Shown one piece after another: positions 1-6,310 of a DNA stretch of 64,000 bases. The stretch's first letter is position 1. Each line of letters opens with the position of its first letter. Origin of the DNA: Prosthecomicrobium pneumaticum (GTDB taxonomy: Bacteria > Pseudomonadota > Alphaproteobacteria > Rhizobiales > Kaistiaceae); assembly GCF_014199915.1 (NCBI RefSeq), contig NZ_JACHOO010000008.1, forward strand, positions 1-64,000. The letters are read 5' to 3'. A model generated the notes under the pieces. It ran no database searches, was not told the DNA's origin, and saw nothing but the letters and a program-made list of their open reading frames with translations. The position numbers were made by a program, and so were the translations under genes.

Positions 1-635
1 ACGGCCGCGAGGAGCGAGCGCAGGTCCAGCCCCACCGCGTCGCCGTCGCTCCCCGTGCTTTCGATCTGCGGCGCGTCGTCGTCCAGCAGCGCGGCAAAAA
101 ATTTCGTGTCCACGGCCGCGGCGACGGCGCGCCGCAGTTCCCGGTTGAGGAAACTCTCGCCACGCACACCCATGGCTTGCAGCAGCTCTTTTGACAGCAC
201 GACGACGCCGGCCGCCAGGATCGGCTTGAGAACTTCGGAACCGAGCGACATGCGGCTGACCGGGATCGCGGCCCCTTCGCCGGCCACGAACGCCGAGGCG
301 TCGGTCGTGGTGTAGCCGAACATGTGTTCGAACGGCACGAGGGTCAGTGCCTCCGAGCCGGCCAGTTCGTAGAAGGCGGACCGGCCGCGAAGTTGCGGAA
401 TGAACGCGGCCGTCAGAGTGCGCGCATTCACAAGCGCTTCCTGATCCGGGGCGGTCGTGACGCCGCTCGGCACGGCCGCCTTGGTCATTTCGAGAACGTG
501 AACGTTGGTTTCCGAACGCTCGGCGATGGCGATGGCATCCGACCGACTGCCGCCGGCCATCGCGAGATACTTCGCGACCCGCACGAGGCCGCCCGCGTTC
601 GGGTCGGGCGGGGTCGGGGCGAACGCGCGGTTCAT
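1..635 (-). CDS. Phage major capsid protein, HK97 fold (partial, C-terminus beyond window)
   Basis: Reading leftwards from an ATG at 635-633, the frame stays open to position 1, giving about 211 residues. A good Shine-Dalgarno (AGGAG, about 8 bases upstream) supports the start. The middle of the protein carries the pattern expected of HK97-type capsids: a FVAGEGAAIPVS segment (E-loop/spine region) followed by VVVLSKELLQ and an amphipathic helix rich in Arg and Ala, which is the long spine helix of the fold. It begins without a long scaffold-like delta domain. It is the last visible gene of the leftward operon, after a 75-base gap. Assignment rests on motif recognition only; the rest of the gene is outside the window, so completeness cannot be judged. 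Confidence 0.75.
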   Translation of the reverse strand, partial: MNRAFAPTPPDPNAGGLVRVAKYLAMAGGSRSDAIAIAERSETNVHVLEMTKAAVPSGVTTAPDQEALVNARTLTAAFIPQLRGRSAFYELAGSEALTLVPFEHMFGYTTTDASAFVAGEGAAIPVSRMSLGSEVLKPILAAGVVVLSKELLQAMGVRGESFLNRELRRAVAAAVDTKFFAALLDDDAPQIESTGSDGDAVGLDLRSLLAA

Positions 636-926: not shown

Positions 927-1192
927 GGGCGCCCCTCGATCGGCGCCGGCGGCGAATGCCACCGGATCGCGAACCCATCGCGCCGCCATGCGTCCGCCGC
1001 GGCCCGGAGCCCCGCCTCGGTGTCGCCGCTCCACACGATGTTGCGCCCTCCGTCGGGTTCCACAAGCTCGAGCAGGAAGACCGGGCGCCCCGTCTCATGG
1101 CTGATCCCGGCGAGGTGGGCATACAGCGAGCCCCGCCGGCGCGGCGCCACACGGCGAGAGGGACGGGCGAAAGGAAGGATCGTTGCGCTCAT
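923..1192 (-). CDS. Small hypothetical protein of mobile element
   Basis: An 89-residue product with an ATGA overlap at both ends (1192-1189 with the DUF3102-like gene, 926-923 with the next gene). It opens with MSATILPFARPSRR, resembling the MSAVVPFPR opening of the DUF6074-like gene at 2387-2635, which hints at a shared N-terminal motif. The middle contains a GRPVFLLELVEPDGG stretch and a Trp-rich C-terminal half that looks like a small alpha/beta domain. No function is known. Confidence 0.6.
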   Translation of the reverse strand: MSATILPFARPSRRVAPRRRGSLYAHLAGISHETGRPVFLLELVEPDGGRNIVWSGDTEAGLRAAADAWRRDGFAIRWHSPPAPIEGRP

Positions 1193-1818
1193 GCGCGCTC
1201 CTTCGAATAGCCAAGCTCGCGCGCCCTCTTTTCCCAGAACTTTGCCGATTTCGCATGACCCGCCTTGTCCTTGCTTTCGCGCTCGACGCGGGTCTTCAGA
1301 ACGCGGATTTCTTCGTCCTTCGCGGCGACCACGGCCTCAAAGCCGCCCTTGTCGAAGAGGGGACGCATCTCCGAGAACCGCTTGATCTCGGCTTTCAAAG
1401 CGGAGATTTCCGCTTCGAGCGCCGCGTTCGCCTCTCGAAGCTCTTCGTTCTCCGCTTGCAGAACTGCCTCCTCGGCCTTCAACTCGGCAGACTCCTCCCG
1501 GATCGCCGCTTCGGCCCGTTCGCGCGCCAGATGTTCGAGCGCGGCTCGGATGCCGCCCAAATCGGCCACCGTGTCCGGTTTGATGCCGGATCGCGCGAGC
1601 GTCATGAAATTGCGCGCCGTGCGCTCGTTGATCCCGGCGCGCTTGAGAAAGGGAAGCCACTCGCCATGAGCGCAGCGGTCTTTCGCGTCGATCAGGAGCC
1701 CGCCCGCTCGCAAGGCGCTTTCCGCCGTCGTGCGCCGTGCGAGAAGGAACTGCTCGTTCGCGAGCTTCACTTGCTCGGCGAGGTCGGCAAGGGCGTTCGA
1801 AAGGATGACGTCCGTCAT
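1189..1818 (-). CDS. DUF3102-like coiled-coil protein
   Basis: A 209-residue product beginning MTDVILSNALADLAEQ. The ATG at 1818 is preferred over longer in-frame starts because AGGTGG lies just upstream and the longer version would run through the iteron array. Residues about 20-75 resemble DUF3102, with the typical GLLIDAKDRCAHGEWLPFL and NERTARNFM segments (a family found in phages and plasmids, with a helix-turn-helix-like fold). Residues about 100-160 form a long Glu/Lys/Leu coiled coil, followed by a basic tail. It sits right after the iteron-bearing replication-like gene, so a part in replication or partition of the element is plausible but not shown. Confidence 0.65.
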   Translation of the reverse strand: MTDVILSNALADLAEQVKLANEQFLLARRTTAESALRAGGLLIDAKDRCAHGEWLPFLKRAGINERTARNFMTLARSGIKPDTVADLGGIRAALEHLARERAEAAIREESAELKAEEAVLQAENEELREANAALEAEISALKAEIKRFSEMRPLFDKGGFEAVVAAKDEEIRVLKTRVERESKDKAGHAKSAKFWEKRARELGYSKERA

Positions 1819-1843
1819 TGAGACCACCTGGTAAACTATATGT

Positions 1844-1988
1844 GTCCCACCAGTGGGACCGTGATTGGTCAGATTGCGGCCTTCACGGTCCCACCAGAGG
1901 GACCGTAAGCGGCCTTTTTCGACACCATTGTCCCAGCAGAAGGACCGGTCGGTCCCAGCACGGGGACAGACTGTCCCTGTGGCGGGAC
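1844..1988. repeat. Iteron array: five 16-bp palindromes GTCCC-N6-GGGAC
   Basis: Five copies of GTCCC-N6-GGGAC lie at 1844-1859, 1888-1903, 1930-1945 (right arm AGGAC), 1952-1967 and 1973-1988. Centres are 44, 42, 22 and 21 bases apart, i.e. multiples of about 21-22 bp or two helical turns, so a protein would bind them on one face. The second copy extends to 8-bp arms (ACGGTCCC and GGGACCGT). Four copies lie inside the 3' end of the winged-helix gene, where 21 bp gives a 7-residue repeat; the first lies in the gap before the DUF3102-like gene. This looks like an origin or operator. Confidence 0.75.
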
Positions 1989-2390
1989 CGTGTTTTGTTT
2001 TTCGGGGGTCCAGCGGGCGAACTCCTTCGAGGGGTTCTCGTCCGCTGTTCCGTGCTCCGTCAGCACCCATTCCGAACTGTGGCGCACCTTGCAGCTGAAG
2101 CCTCCCTTCTGGCGCGCGCGGATGAAGCCGCGTTCCTCAAGGACGGCCAGCGCCCGGGCAGCGGATGACTTGCCAACATGCAGAAGCTCGCCAAGGCGGC
2201 GGACAGACATGGCGATCTCGCCGTTGTTGCTGCCGTTGTAGAGCCGCTTCAACTCGACATAGGCCGCGCGCTGTTCCGCGCTGAGGCTCTGCCAAGCGGG
2301 CGTCGCCATCAGCCATTCGTAGAGACGGACATGCCGAGGTTCGGTCGAGGATCTACCGGTCCCGTCATGCCGGCGGGTCTTCTTGCTCAC
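1869..2390 (-). CDS. Winged-helix replication-initiator-like protein with iterons in its own gene
   Basis: A 173-residue product starting at a GTG (2390) that overlaps the preceding stop as GTGA and has GGAGGG 7 bases upstream. Residues about 18-110 look like a winged-helix domain of the kind found in phage O-type replication proteins and HTH_36 proteins: a MATPAWQSLSAEQRAAYVELK helix region, SVRRLGELLHVGKSSAARAL as the helix-turn-helix, then a basic wing. The C-terminal 40 residues are low complexity, with heptads such as TVPPQGQ, SVPVLGP, TGPSAGT and YGPSGGT, and are simply the translation of the DNA iterons. Lambda O also carries its origin iterons inside its own coding sequence, so initiation of element replication is the best guess; an autoregulator is the alternative. 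Confidence 0.65.
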   Translation of the reverse strand: MSKKTRRHDGTGRSSTEPRHVRLYEWLMATPAWQSLSAEQRAAYVELKRLYNGSNNGEIAMSVRRLGELLHVGKSSAARALAVLEERGFIRARQKGGFSCKVRHSSEWVLTEHGTADENPSKEFARWTPEKQNTVPPQGQSVPVLGPTGPSAGTMVSKKAAYGPSGGTVKAAI

Positions 2391-2635
2391 GCGGCGCCCT
2401 CCGGCGTCAGCACAACGCGCCATAGTTCTCCGCGGATGGCGCCCTCAATCGCTCGTCTCTCCTGCTCGATCAGACGTTCGTCGATGCCGCGCTTGCGCAT
2501 CGTGTCGGTCTGGATCCGCAGCTGATGCGCGAGCAGCTTCTCTGCCGTCGACGGCGCACTTTCCGCCATGCGCAGAGCGTGCCGCCGGATGAACCGGCGA
2601 TCACGTGTTCTTGGGAACGGAACTACCGCGCTCAT
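2387..2635 (-). CDS. DUF6074-like small protein
   Basis: An 82-residue product beginning MSAVVPFPRTRDRRFIRRHA. I prefer the ATG at 2635 because GAGGA precedes it; a TTG at 2656 that overlaps the upstream stop is the alternative and would add seven residues. The short PFPR opening, the Arg-rich helix and the RKRGID segment recall DUF6074, a small family common in rhizobial phages and islands. The function is unknown. It overlaps the replication-like gene by four bases and is probably translationally coupled to it. Confidence 0.55.
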   Translation of the reverse strand: MSAVVPFPRTRDRRFIRRHALRMAESAPSTAEKLLAHQLRIQTDTMRKRGIDERLIEQERRAIEGAIRGELWRVVLTPEGAA

Positions 2636-2652
2636 GCCGTCGTCCTCGCGTT

Positions 2653-2937
2653 TCAATCGGACCTGAAGAGGTCGAGCGCGTCTTGATCGGCGAGGCCGTC
2701 CTCGGCCGGGTCGCGTTCGCGGTCGGCGCCTTCCTCGAAGTCGGCGTCATTTTCGCGATCGTCGCGCGAGGTGCTGTAGGCGCCGCGGGAGACCTCACAG
2801 CCGGTCGCCGCGAGGTAGGGTTCGAGGTCCGTATCGCCGTCGGCCTGATCGAGCAGCGCGATCAGCCGCTCGATCTCGTCCTCGATCGCCCGGCGTGTGG
2901 CCGGGCTGATCTGGTTGGGGCGCCAATGGATGCTCAC
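2653..2937 (-). CDS. Small acidic hypothetical protein
   Basis: A 94-residue product from a GTG start at 2937 that overlaps the upstream stop as GTGA. The first half (MSIHWRPNQISPATRRAIED and a Leu-rich helix) looks folded; the second half is very acidic and probably disordered (many Asp and Glu). No family is recognised. Confidence 0.5.
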   Translation of the reverse strand: MSIHWRPNQISPATRRAIEDEIERLIALLDQADGDTDLEPYLAATGCEVSRGAYSTSRDDRENDADFEEGADRERDPAEDGLADQDALDLFRSD

Positions 2938-3436: not shown

Positions 3437-3753
3437 TCGGCACCTCCGGCGACGGAGGCGGCAAGCGCGGCGATTTCCGACAACTCTTCGCCGTTGTCGA
3501 TCGCATTCCGCAGGATGATGTGGGCCCACGCATCCCGGTCAAAGTGATCGTGGGGCACCATCTCGCGCAGCAGCGCGGCCATCTCATTGGCCTTGCCGTC
3601 GAGCGCATCGACGAACCCGTCCAGAATATCCACCCCCTCGTGGTCCGGTCCCGGCTTGTCGAAGACCGGACGCTGGGTGAAGGCCGCCATCACCTCGGCT
3701 GCCGTTCGACAGGCGGTGTAGACCGAGCAAATCTCAAGGAGACCCATCGCCAT
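3433..3753 (-). CDS. Small helical protein, paralogue family of the element (copy 2)
   Basis: A 106-residue product. Either the ATG at 3753 or a GTG at 3756 can start it; both overlap the upstream stop and share the GGGAGGG site. The C-terminal half (ALLREMVPHDHFDRDAWAHI, then GEELSEIAALAASVAGG) matches the pattern of the 2934-3230 product. The function is unknown; tandem relatives inside a small element suggest a dose- or specificity-related role rather than a structural one. Confidence 0.5.
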   Translation of the reverse strand: MAMGLLEICSVYTACRTAAEVMAAFTQRPVFDKPGPDHEGVDILDGFVDALDGKANEMAALLREMVPHDHFDRDAWAHIILRNAIDNGEELSEIAALAASVAGGAE

Positions 3754-4172
3754 CACGAAGCCCTCCCGGCGGCATGCTCCTGCGCGCGGACCGTCTCGTT
3801 GAAGGCGCGCGTCCACCCCTCCTCGATCTCGTCGGCGAGGATCGTGATCTCGGCCGCCAGAAAAGTGAGGTTCTCGCCATTCGAAACGGTCACCTCGATC
3901 ACGTCGAGAAGATCGCCCCGCGACTTCGCCTTCGAGGGGCATAGGCAGCTTTCAACGAGACCATTCGCGATGCTCGCCAGGCGAGCGAGGCGACGCACGT
4001 CATCTTCAAGGGCGAAGAACGTGTTATCGCGGTCCGGCTTGGTTGCGGCCGGCGGCGGTTCGGTGGTAGGCTTCAAGCCGTTCATCGGAATTTCCTTGCA
4101 GGGGTTGCGAGAACCAGGGCTCGGGACGGTTGCCGCCGTCGCCGGGCCTTTTCTTTTCGGGGCGGTGCTCAT
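3753..4172 (-). CDS. Small hypothetical protein, possible distant paralogue (copy 3)
   Basis: A 139-residue product from an ATG at 4172 that overlaps the upstream stop as ATGA. An alternative internal start (MNGLKPTTEP, 29 residues on) would remove a basic, Pro-rich and probably disordered leader. The folded part is helical and contains two Cys (SCLCPSK) and an ENLTFLAAEITILADEIEEG segment that resembles the L-x-EIA-x-LA ending of its neighbours. No family is recognised. Confidence 0.5.
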   Translation of the reverse strand: MSTAPKRKGPATAATVPSPGSRNPCKEIPMNGLKPTTEPPPAATKPDRDNTFFALEDDVRRLARLASIANGLVESCLCPSKAKSRGDLLDVIEVTVSNGENLTFLAAEITILADEIEEGWTRAFNETVRAQEHAAGRAS

Positions 4173-4351
4173 GCTTCGCCCCGGTCAAGATGCGAGCACG
4201 CCTTGACATCGTGCGCGACCTTCTCGGCGAGATCGCGAGCCACAAAGAGCAACGCCGTGAGCCTGGGCCATTCGCCCTCGCTGTCCGGCGTCATGCAGCC
4301 GTGGTGCACGACGCCAAGGCGGATTTCGCGAATGGAGGTTGGTGCGCTCAT
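4169..4351 (-). CDS. Small hypothetical protein downstream of alpA
   Basis: A 60-residue product beginning MSAPTSIREIRLGVVHH. The ATG at 4351 overlaps the alpA stop as ATGA, which decides this start over an upstream in-frame ATG. The protein has an ALLFVARDLAEKVAHDV helix. No family is recognised. Confidence 0.5.
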   Translation of the reverse strand: MSAPTSIREIRLGVVHHGCMTPDSEGEWPRLTALLFVARDLAEKVAHDVKACSHLDRGEA

Positions 4352-4545
4352 GCCGCGCTTCTCTCGGCAATGCGCGCCCGTATCCATTGCTCGACCTCGC
4401 AGCGCACGAAGGCGACCCGCCGTTCACCGAGCGGAACCGCCTTCGGGAACTTGCCCAGCGCGCGCCACCGATTGATTGCGGTTCGGCTGAGTGAGGTCAG
4501 CCTGCAGGCTTCATTCAGGGAGATCAGATTGGGTGTCTCGGTCAA
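4348..4545 (-). CDS. alpA: AlpA-family DNA-binding protein (excisionase/regulator)
   Basis: A 65-residue protein with one MerR-like winged helix-turn-helix: LISLNEACRLTSLSRTAINR is the DNA-reading part, followed by GKFPKAVPLGERRVAFVRCE, the usual AlpA turn and wing, and a final EVEQWIRARI helix. AlpA proteins are phage and satellite regulators that either act as excisionase or switch on integrase or operon promoters. The start codon is a TTG (4545-4543) preceded by GGAG; there is no nearby ATG in frame. It heads the leftward operon of small genes and lies just after the integrase pair, with a 116-base regulatory gap between. Confidence 0.85.
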   Translation of the reverse strand: MTETPNLISLNEACRLTSLSRTAINRWRALGKFPKAVPLGERRVAFVRCEVEQWIRARIAERSAA

Positions 4546-4672: not shown

Positions 4673-5105
4673 AGTCTGCCAATTTTGCAGCTTCTTGCCG
4701 CGCCAGGTATTCGCGGAAATCGCGCTCGAGCGCGCGAGTCTCTCGAACGCGTGCAAGCGCCGCCAGACAACTCGAACGCGAATGCCCCTCCTCTCCAAAC
4801 GCTTTCTGAGCTTCATGCACGGCCGCGTCGATCGTAAAGCCTCTCTGATCGACTAACCGTTCCATGAAATAGGAAAGCCGCTTGTCCGACCTTGGGCGAC
4901 CTGTGTTTTTGTACGATAGCCGAAATAACGTCCGCGTCGCGTTCTTGCCGTTCGGATCGATCATACCGGCGAGGAGCTTGCAAAAGAGCTTAGATGGATT
5001 CCCCTTTCTCAGTTCTTCTGCAATTGCGGAAGCCCGTTCCTCCAAGGACATTGGAGGCATGTCGGACCCATCTTCCACCAGAACGGCCCAATCGTGTTCG
5101 CTCAT
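4662..5105 (-). CDS. Integrase-partner hypothetical protein
   Basis: A 147-residue product beginning MSEHDWAVLVEDGSDMPPMS. The start at 5105 overlaps the integrase stop as ATGA, so it is co-transcribed and probably coupled. The protein is charged and mostly helical, with RPRSDKRLSYFMERLVDQRG in the middle and a Glu/Arg-rich C-terminal helix. Its place right behind the integrase suggests a role in excision or control of integration, but I recognise no domain. Confidence 0.55.
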   Translation of the reverse strand: MSEHDWAVLVEDGSDMPPMSLEERASAIAEELRKGNPSKLFCKLLAGMIDPNGKNATRTLFRLSYKNTGRPRSDKRLSYFMERLVDQRGFTIDAAVHEAQKAFGEEGHSRSSCLAALARVRETRALERDFREYLARQEAAKLADCPE

Positions 5106-6310
5106 TGGTTGACGCCTCCGCTGTTCGGGACGCCGGTCGGCCTTCCCGCCTCGCAATAGGCCGCCCAGGCATTCATCAGCTCGCGTCGCTTTTCGATCGC
5201 GTCGCCCCGGCGATAAGCGCGCTCGACGGCGTTTCCAACCTGATGAGCGAGTGCCTCCTCGGCGATTTCGCGGGGAAAGTCCGTGCGATCTCCGCACCAG
5301 TCGCGGAACGTGCTTCTGAGCCCATGCAGAGTGGCGGCTTTGTCCGGCGAGGCCAGCCGAAGGGCCTTTGTCATCGCGGTGTCGGAAATGGGCCTGCCGT
5401 CGACGCCGCCGCCGAATATGAACTTGCCGCTGGCTCGCTGCCGCATGGTCTCGACAATCGCAAGAGCCCGATCCGAAAGCGGGACGACATGTTCCCGGCC
5501 GCCCTTCATCCGGTCCGGCGGCACCCGCCATGTGCGCGCGGCAACGTCGATCTCCGAGAACGTCGCGCCCCGCGCCTCGCCGGTCCTCGCTGCCGTCAGT
5601 GCGATGAACTCTACCGCACGCGCTGCCGTGCCGCTGGATTGGCGAAGGCCGGCGATCAGATTCGCCGCTTCGGCATAGGCGAGTGCCGCATGGTGACCCC
5701 GCTGGAGCTTATTCCGCGCCGGCATGACCTTGTCGAGCAGCCCCCGCCACCGCGCCGGGTTGCCGGCGGTGCGCCAGCCATGCGCGATGCCATAGTCAAT
5801 CACGGCTTGAATACGTGACCGGAGCCTGTCGGCCGTCTCCGGCCGCTCCTGCCAATGCGGGAGAAGGCATTCCTTCACGTCGCCAATGACGATCTCGGCG
5901 ATCGGAAGCGCGTGTAGCGGCTTCGCATACTCGCGAAGAGTCATTTCCCACTGCAACCGGTGCTTTTCGTTGGTCCAGTCGGCGGCTTTCGCTTCGAGGA
6001 GTCCGCCCATGCAATCGGCGAAGGTGACAATGCGCGCGGGCGCCCTGTCCGCCTTTGGATCCTCTCCACGCGCCAGCTTCTGCCGGATCAGGTCGGCCTT
6101 TTGTCTTGCCAGCGCCAGCGACACAGGCGCGGTGCCCTGCCCATAGCCACCGAGCCCGATCTCATTGCGCCGTCCGGCCCGTTTGAGGATGAAGAACCAT
6201 TGCTTACTGCCGCCCTTCCGCACGCGAAGCCAAAGCCCGTCCCCGTCCCCATAAACGCCGGGCTTGTCGAGCCGTCTGACTCCGCTTTCGGATAGCTTGT
6301 GCCGTGCCAT
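5102..6310 (-). CDS. int: Tyrosine recombinase/integrase (DUF4102 N-terminal type)
   Basis: A 402-residue integrase. Residues about 1-90 form the DUF4102 arm-binding domain (LDKPGVYGDGDGLWLRV, then KQWFFILKRAGRRNEIGLGG), residues 95-190 the core-binding SAM-like domain, and 205-385 the catalytic domain. The catalytic set is visible: R242 (ALTAARTGEARG), K269, H329 and R332 (HGLRSTFRD), H355 (LAHQVGN) and the nucleophile Y366 (RAYRRGD). The length is normal for P4-like integrases and nothing is broken, so the element may still move. The ATG at 6310 lies 45-80 bases from an inverted repeat. Such integrases often use tRNA 3' ends, but no tRNA is seen next to it. Confidence 0.95.
   Translation of the reverse strand: MARHKLSESGVRRLDKPGVYGDGDGLWLRVRKGGSKQWFFILKRAGRRNEIGLGGYGQGTAPVSLALARQKADLIRQKLARGEDPKADRAPARIVTFADCMGGLLEAKAADWTNEKHRLQWEMTLREYAKPLHALPIAEIVIGDVKECLLPHWQERPETADRLRSRIQAVIDYGIAHGWRTAGNPARWRGLLDKVMPARNKLQRGHHAALAYAEAANLIAGLRQSSGTAARAVEFIALTAARTGEARGATFSEIDVAARTWRVPPDRMKGGREHVVPLSDRALAIVETMRQRASGKFIFGGGVDGRPISDTAMTKALRLASPDKAATLHGLRSTFRDWCGDRTDFPREIAEEALAHQVGNAVERAYRRGDAIEKRRELMNAWAAYCEAGRPTGVPNSGGVNQ

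Follow-up and report, generated by a model that had tools for sequence, protein, structure and literature searches.

Why should the last codons of a small gene in Prosthecomicrobium pneumaticum be written in helically spaced palindromes? The window that we analyzed, a stretch of 64,000 nucleotides starting at base 1 of contig C8, holds five GTCCC-N6-GGGAC palindromes, one of them imperfect, at the 3′ end of a gene for a 184-residue winged-helix protein (1869..2423, minus strand). The exact form GTCCCNNNNNNGGGAC starts at 1844, 1888, 1952 and 1973 and nowhere else in the 64 kb, four occurrences against 0.20 expected and a number that none of 100 shuffles reached; the copy at 1930 differs by a single mismatch (right arm AGGAC). 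A relaxed pattern, GTCC-N8-GGAC, occurs six times in the window, five of them within the array, and never more than twice per 150 bp in 100 shuffles. Elsewhere in the 4.65-Mb genome the exact palindrome has only one further site. The original prediction, of five palindromes at multiples of about 21–22 bp, describes a real array with one imperfect copy: the start-to-start steps are 44, 42, 22 and 21 bp, or 4.2, 4.0, 2.1 and 2.0 turns at 10.5 bp per turn.

Read along the minus strand, the gene encodes a winged-helix domain (about 2004–2336) followed by a tail written in the repeats, which we call iterons. An A-rich box, AAAAACAAAAC (1992..2002), directly precedes iteron 1 (GTCCCGCCACAGGGAC, 1973..1988). 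Iteron 2 (GTCCCCGTGCTGGGAC, 1952..1967) lies 21 bp from iteron 1, iteron 3 (GTCCTTCTGCTGGGAC, 1930..1945) is the copy with one mismatch, and iteron 4 (GTCCCTCTGGTGGGAC, 1888..1903) follows 42 bp from iteron 3. The 44-bp step then encloses an iteron-free gap (1860..1887), after which the proximal iteron 5 (GTCCCACTGGTGGGAC, 1844..1859) adjoins an AT box, CACATATAGTTTACCAGG (1827..1844), a candidate unwinding element. That four palindromes lie inside the coding sequence and one beyond the stop, as had been proposed, is borne out by these coordinates.

The coding copies had also been said to force a 7-residue protein repeat. Iterons 1–4 start at codons 146, 153, 160 and 174, so the seven-codon spacing stands, but the peptide repeats only in pairs: VPPQGQ and VPVLGP, from the first two copies, share one frame, and GPSAGT and GPSGGT, from the other two coding copies, share a second. 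These peptides, recurring at 7-codon steps, are what would speak for selection on a Gly/Pro-rich heptapeptide with the DNA pattern as its by-product. We consider that explanation extremely improbable, since the frames differ among the copies, the distances between repeated words lack a coding-like 3-nt bias, some relatives have arrays that are non-coding or nearly so, and the tail is predicted to be unstructured. Because the copies sit in two reading frames, they are repeats of DNA, and of peptide only in pairs. The array in the window is a DNA feature and not a protein repeat.

What does the protein itself suggest? Its matches to PHROG profiles labeled "replication initiation", "O-like" or DnaD-like are weak but consistent (E = 2.8e-8 to 2.2e-6), with phrog_345, "replication initiation O-like", at E = 2.1e-7. 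In Pfam it has only sub-threshold winged-helix matches, and the RepA_N family was not among the results; a profile search of the PDB gave E = 0.02. An AlphaFold2 model built from 12 sequences has a confident winged-helix core from residue 31 to about residue 100 and lower confidence beyond, falling to block means of 55–62 from residue 131 on, and at this low confidence no helix or strand is predicted past residue 144. When the model was compared with the PDB by Foldseek, RepA_N-type initiator domains ranked first (4pql, then 4pt7, 4pta and 5kbj), the match to 4pql being modest (E = 4.6e-4; TM 0.53 by target and 0.39 by query length), and the top viral match was a model of the lambda GpO N-terminal domain (E = 1.5e-5). 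The predicted fold thus resembles RepA_N plasmid initiators and lambda O. However, VIA-align gives Z of about 9 for 4pql, 4pt7 and 5kbj (9.3 for 4pql), the same 9.3 for a riboflavin kinase/regulator and 8.7 for CRP-type regulators, and with regulators scoring so near to 4pql the fold by itself cannot tell an initiator from a regulator. No helicase-loader domain was recognized in the 184 residues, and a tblastn search with the protein against 50,697 phage records returned no match.

The genes around the array, all on the minus strand, have the look of an integrated element. Upstream of the initiator-like gene lie a DUF6074 gene (2387..2656; PF19551, E = 1.7e-16), an AlpA-type excisionase/regulator (4348..4545; PF05930, E = 2.7e-14) and a tyrosine integrase (5102..6310; PF22022, PF13356, PF00589), so that Pfam places both an integrase and AlpA in the element. 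Downstream, a gene with weak DUF3102 similarity below the Pfam cut-off (1189..1818) starts directly after the AT box, and an HK97-type major capsid gene (3..635; phrog_617, E = 1.5e-14; PF05065) is cut by the contig end. A search for attachment repeats around this element returned none, and since the start of the contig cuts it within the capsid gene, it may be a prophage, what is left of one, or a capsid-bearing satellite. The genome holds a further phage region close to the beginning of contig C2 (G000:C2:317-5309), with another HK97 capsid gene and a portal gene; it might serve as a helper or represent a second prophage. Among the subset of window ORFs searched against PHROG and Pfam, we found no helicase-loader, primase or ParA-type family. 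The lack of a ParA-type protein bears on another explanation, namely that the small protein binds the array as a centromere-like partition or incompatibility site. Centromeres, too, typically have dyad sites in several copies next to the gene for a small DNA-binding protein. The elements are integrated, however, and some are very small, and the profile and fold matches point to replication initiators, all of which makes partition quite improbable.

Relatives of the gene are scattered. A protein search found them in 12 of 151 near genomes, and scans of close relatives with the window protein alone found none. Profile searches yielded hits in 19 of 385 genomes at class level, in 48 of 397 at order level and in 18 of 299 at phylum level, in sets that overlap and each of which counts the window's own genome. 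Searches of plasmid and phage records with three homologous proteins gave few hits. Two plasmid records, two IMG/VR contigs, nine genome contigs (two of them duplicates) and one Pseudomonas record were added, and 88 loci with a hit merged into 76 distinct ones, with the window included and the Pseudomonas record excluded. Enough sequence for analysis was available at 73 of these; L065, L068 and L115, which end near the domain, were dropped. Eleven homologues were first inspected by eye, and an earlier lag analysis left out 7 of 33 loci in which no box was recognized or the contig ended. Several loci are close to a contig end, at a distance of about 2.5 kb or less in the window, L047, L049, L050 and L059, and the contigs of L065 and L068 stop 3 and 20 nt past the domain, at the expected start of the array. 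Assembly may break near these loci because of repeats, multiple copies or a circular form.

Across these loci the helical spacing recurs with different letters. Lineages have repeats of their own, such as GTCCGATGGATCGGAC in L007 and L041, GTCCCTCGAGAAGGGAC in L019 and L050, GTCCACGCTGGCGGAC in L022 and L052, and AGTCCGATGAGAAGGAC in L108. We measured phasing from the distances at which any 6-mer recurs, in fixed regions, with no repeats picked by eye and with the window kept out of both sub-sets. For 30 of 32 first-round loci (a fixed 220-nt region), the signal at a 10.7-bp period was R = 0.423, compared with at most 0.267 in 200 shuffles and 0.111 in upstream coding DNA. For 42 of 43 loci found later, none of which had any part in forming the phasing idea, it was R = 0.399 at 10.8 bp (shuffles at most 0.278; upstream 0.071), with recurrence distances peaking at 21–22, 32–35, 43–45, 54–55 and 67 bp. 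Multiples of three are not favored among these post-domain distances (100/109/77), whereas those in upstream coding DNA are distributed 71/52/37. Gapped palindromes are enriched as well, with 248 in 73 loci against 165 upstream and 135 in shuffled sequence. At a single locus the signal is modest: the best 8-mer count exceeds 12 shuffles in 22 of 73 loci, and no recognizable array was seen in weak hits such as L114, L117 and L121. Of the 73 loci, 29 have an A-rich box, AAAAACARAA with at most one mismatch, close to where the domain ends (3.3 expected), the listed offsets falling in all three frames.

Among 60 of the 73 loci, the sharing of iteron words rises with identity of the recognition helix (Spearman 0.118, a value as high in 1 of 1000 permutations) and still does so given the rest of the domain (partial 0.092; 3 of 1000 permutations). 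With the rest of the domain the correlation is no weaker (0.159, or 0.141 as a partial value), so that joint descent accounts for the trend more than direct contact does.

Many loci also share what follows the last repeat, an AT-rich box that ends in TACCA (or the variants TAGCCA and TAACCA) and then a G-rich stretch. The common layout is a winged helix, often the A-rich box, iterons, commonly a step of 43–45 bp, a proximal iteron and a TATAnnnTACCA box. With a matrix made from 20 training loci, the window included, 19 of 53 other loci outscored every one of 60 shuffles, but none of 53 upstream stretches did so; the 34 held-out loci that missed this strict threshold include some with visible variant boxes. 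The figures on stability, stop and box position, geometry and gap motifs come from 39 loci with a recognized box, 20 of them training loci, and the stability and geometry figures therefore apply to selected loci. In 38 of the 39, the box lies within the least stable 3% of its 380-bp neighborhood, a figure partly built in, as is the limited spread of box positions, because the training sites were chosen by an AT-rich rule and the search for boxes went no further than 320 nt from the domain. On its own, the box is a poor marker: among the 80 matches listed for the 14-mer TATAGTTTACCAGG in viral contigs, none had a winged-helix hit. The AT box is meaningful in context only.

Part of that context is the geometry upstream of the box. 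Repeated words lie at −12 to −30 in up to 33 of the 39 loci (about 8 expected), drop to background at −34 to −52 and rise again at −55 to −73, in up to 27 of 39. The nearest earlier copy of the proximal-iteron word is 43–45 bp away in 23 of 39 loci, including 9 of 19 held-out ones, against a mean of 0.8 and a maximum of 3 in shuffles; the corresponding step in the window is 44 bp. By the word test this step is absent from the remaining 16 of 39 boxed loci, several of which have steps of 33–35 or 54–55 bp. Past the box, iteron words score 33 hits in 18 of 39 loci, compared with 30 in 17 of 39 in a control stretch, and with no excess on that side the array is one-sided. Anchoring repeat cover on the box revealed no 10–11-bp periodicity, all five periods tried lying below the shuffle maximum. 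The phase shows in repeat-to-repeat distances and not in absolute position beyond the proximal copies. DnaA boxes (at most one mismatch) were not found between −100 and +500 of the domain end in any of the 73 loci, where 5.8 were expected, and are perhaps counter-selected there. The motif CGTSARGSC occurs in the iteron-free gap of 13 of 39 loci (at −38 to −60 in 10 of 39) against 5.0 in shuffles, but also in 10 of 39 upstream coding stretches, and as an extra gap motif it is a weak lead. The gap at 1860–1887 and those of relatives often open with CGTGAAGGCC or CGTCAGGCC and contain a short A/T run, a pattern that is unconvincing against the upstream control.

The position of the gene end tells us which of the two overlapping messages is incidental. 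In the 39 loci, with the search limited to 320 nt, the box lies at a median of 169 nt past the domain (sd 26; quartiles 159–192), whereas the stop codon falls at a median of 126 nt (sd 145; quartiles 76–181): by nt 30 in 3 loci, between nt 30 and the box in 25 and past the box in 11. With the box steady in place and the stop wandering, the coding overlap is incidental. The gene of L049 ends 6 nt past the domain, with its array outside the gene, and those of L066 and L093 end 15 and 21 nt past it, with nearly all of the array outside, so that in these relatives, at least, the protein can do without the tail peptide. On the comparative evidence, the suggestion that the tail may exist only to carry the DNA sites is supported. 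Between L103 and L104, which agree at 110 of 115 aligned domain positions, the repeats after the stop are kept and the spacers differ. Across the homologues as a whole, phasing and layout are kept while repeat sequence, frame, peptide and stop codon vary, the opposite of a peptide that persists as its DNA pattern is lost. The protein tail encoded by the iterons would then be a by-product of reading through the origin.

The box and the repeats can be read in another way, with the winged helix as a regulator, the iterons as its operators, TATAnT and CCA as the −10 element and start of the next gene's promoter, and the G-run as a Shine-Dalgarno sequence. This is the serious rival to an origin, although we judge it unlikely. 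An ATG lies within about 20 nt of the box, with G-rich sequence between, in the window and in L041, L042, L053, L056 and L095, and the fold is also like that of CRP- and MarR-type regulators. On the other hand, the box is kept in L051, L092, L103 and L104 where no ORF of at least 40 codons starts within 250 nt downstream (L051 has only 660 nt left before its contig stops). Moreover, the conserved TACCA would fall outside the −10 hexamer, and a proximal iteron at −12 to −30 of TACC would overlap the promoter spacer.

The company that the gene keeps is that of mobile elements. ORFs of the similarity cluster of the window's integrase occur in 28 of 33 loci, mostly 2.2–4.5 kb upstream (on the opposite strand in five cases), and the loci repeatedly have clusters of small AlpA/HTH-like genes (Pfam on two members). 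Exact repeats of at least 14 nt join the integrase flank to the far side in 11 of 27 loci, and by coordinates six of the 11 overlap tRNA genes. The elements so delimited measure about 4.9 kb (tRNA-Thr), 5.7 kb (tRNA-Ser), 5.8 kb (tRNA-Arg, with a repeat of only 15 nt), 7.1 kb (tRNA-Lys), 12.5 kb (tRNA-Pro) and 13.1 kb (tRNA-Ala), the last carrying a set of type I restriction-modification genes as cargo (L055:11957-18269). Seven ORFs were listed in the 4.9-kb element, including the integrase and the initiator; three others searched in Pfam gave no match, HTH_17 and HTH_91, respectively. Among the few ORFs searched in the tRNA-flanked elements, no other replication gene was recognized. In 11 of 33 loci, an HTH_91 winged-helix cluster (Pfam, one member) lies just upstream of the initiator, as at L040:9164-9601, and its product is possibly a partner or regulator of the initiator. 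A protein of about 210 residues, starting MGGxGSG in the examples, is encoded after the origin in 5 of 33 loci (L052:11417-12040, L038, L054, L055 and L061); the one member searched had no Pfam match.

Some of the loci lie on phage-like contigs. The IMG/VR contig L070 carries integrase, tail, portal and capsid genes, and L071 carries terminase, portal and tail genes. In both, a phrog_6247 "DNA topoisomerase"-like gene overlaps the initiator start (L070:2275-3204, L071:2931-3800), and its product is a candidate replication partner. The phage genes around the initiator gene in L070 and L071, like the capsid gene near it in the window, would also suit a cos- or pac-like site for phage-mediated transfer; we hold such a packaging function to be very improbable, and the place of the array in or beside a replication-type gene argues weakly against it. 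The 16.2-kb Pseudomonas record PP003913.1 encodes an integrase, Cox, small genes, a "replication protein O" and a "DNA primase". The record matches the protein of L048 at 27.9% over 76% of the latter. The O gene (3747-4214) ends between the second and third of four identical copies of GTACAGAAACTGTAC, which are spaced at steps of 22, 54 and 35 bp and are the only ones in the record; TTAGATATACCAGG comes after them. The depositors' label of replication protein O agrees with a role in replication.

How does this arrangement relate to known origins? In lambda and lambdoid phages, the initiator gene O likewise has its iterons inside it, beside an AT-rich tract (ori-lambda). Lambda O continues with a C-terminal domain after the iterons. 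At the loci described here, in contrast, the iterons occupy the last part of the gene, straddle its end or lie past it, and the window protein is predicted to have no folded domain following its winged helix; in the window, four of five iterons are in the gene and the fifth and the AT box come just after it. The helicase-loader-recruiting C-terminal domain of lambda O and a P-like gene were not found among the window proteins searched. The parallel with lambda O that the original prediction drew therefore holds for the predicted fold, with GpO as top viral hit, and for the O-like profiles, but not for the placement: the origin proposed here is at or beyond the gene end, whereas lambdoid phages have their iterons and origin midway through O, which in Stx phages is 13 residues longer owing to two additional iterons (PMC7466680).

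Satellites and islands provide closer parallels to the position of the array. Gram-negative PICIs of the EcCICFT073 type carry an integrase, AlpA, a replication gene and, immediately 3′ of it, an iteron origin (PMC6092414), much as the window has an integrase, AlpA and a replication-type gene with iterons at its 3′ end. In PICI origins, however, two iteron sets flank an AT-rich region and the gene is of the pri-rep type (PMC6092414), whereas here the array is on one side of the box only and the initiator is a bare winged helix, with no primase among the window proteins searched. The Vibrio cholerae satellite PLE uses a RepA_N-family RepA and semi-palindromic direct repeats (PMC7145576), recalling the RepA_N-type domains that are the top PDB hits for the 184-residue protein. 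NCR3, where the PLE repeats lie, is non-coding, and a C-terminal domain is part of RepA_N proteins (PMC7145576); here the array is partly coding, and no folded C-terminal domain is predicted in the window protein. PICMI satellites are likewise very small elements with int and AlpA, but use a primase gene, and the main text of their description does not contain the word "iteron" (PMC10803314). The integrative island SGI1 has four 16-bp repeats downstream of its initiator gene repA; its repA-oriV unit combines an IncN2/N3-related RepA with putative DnaA boxes, unlike the 73 loci here, where none were found, and its conserved origin region begins 50 bp past the stop (PMC7826253). Origins within or beside repA have also been suggested for mycobacteriophages (PMC7157519). 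Iterons inside an initiator gene are classical (lambdoid phages), and origins just 3′ of a replication gene are known (PICIs and SGI1, among others). What appears to be new is an O-like winged-helix initiator without the rest of O, together with a one-sided, phased candidate origin that is optionally read as protein. In text searches of the open-licence literature, we found no published description of a family combining winged helix, phased iterons and AT box.

Taken together, these patterns lead us to propose, with a probability of roughly three in four, that the array is the iteron part of the replication origin of an integrative phage-type element and that the gene containing it encodes the initiator. 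The best reading of the sequence is that a candidate iteron origin straddles the end of its own initiator gene. Its layout suits an iteron-controlled theta origin, where an initiator occupies iterons and opens the AT-rich region next to them. After excision, the winged-helix protein would bind the iterons, bend the DNA into a wrapped complex and melt the AT box beside the proximal iteron, where replication proteins would load, whether supplied by the host, by a co-resident or helper phage or by a neighboring primase-like gene. A broader proposal, which we offer tentatively and regard as plausible but rather short of even odds, is that mobile elements of the Pseudomonadota share a widespread and undescribed class of minimal origin. 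Such an origin would consist of a bare winged-helix initiator, helically phased one-sided iterons with a favored 43–45-bp step and a TATAnnnTACCA melting box, and would lack DnaA boxes and a dedicated helicase loader; its iteron code would be rewritten in each lineage, with the gene tail coding or not. If such a class exists, its members would need either a novel means of attracting the replisome or the loan of one from a helper phage.

The signature of winged helix, A-rich box, phased iterons and AT box could make unannotated small integrative elements recognizable as replicons. The roughly 60 pairs of initiator and repeat would form a natural series in which initiator and sites change together and the geometry is held. 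Finally, a gene whose 3′ end is shaped by a DNA site and not by its protein bears on annotation and on codon-based readings of protein tails.
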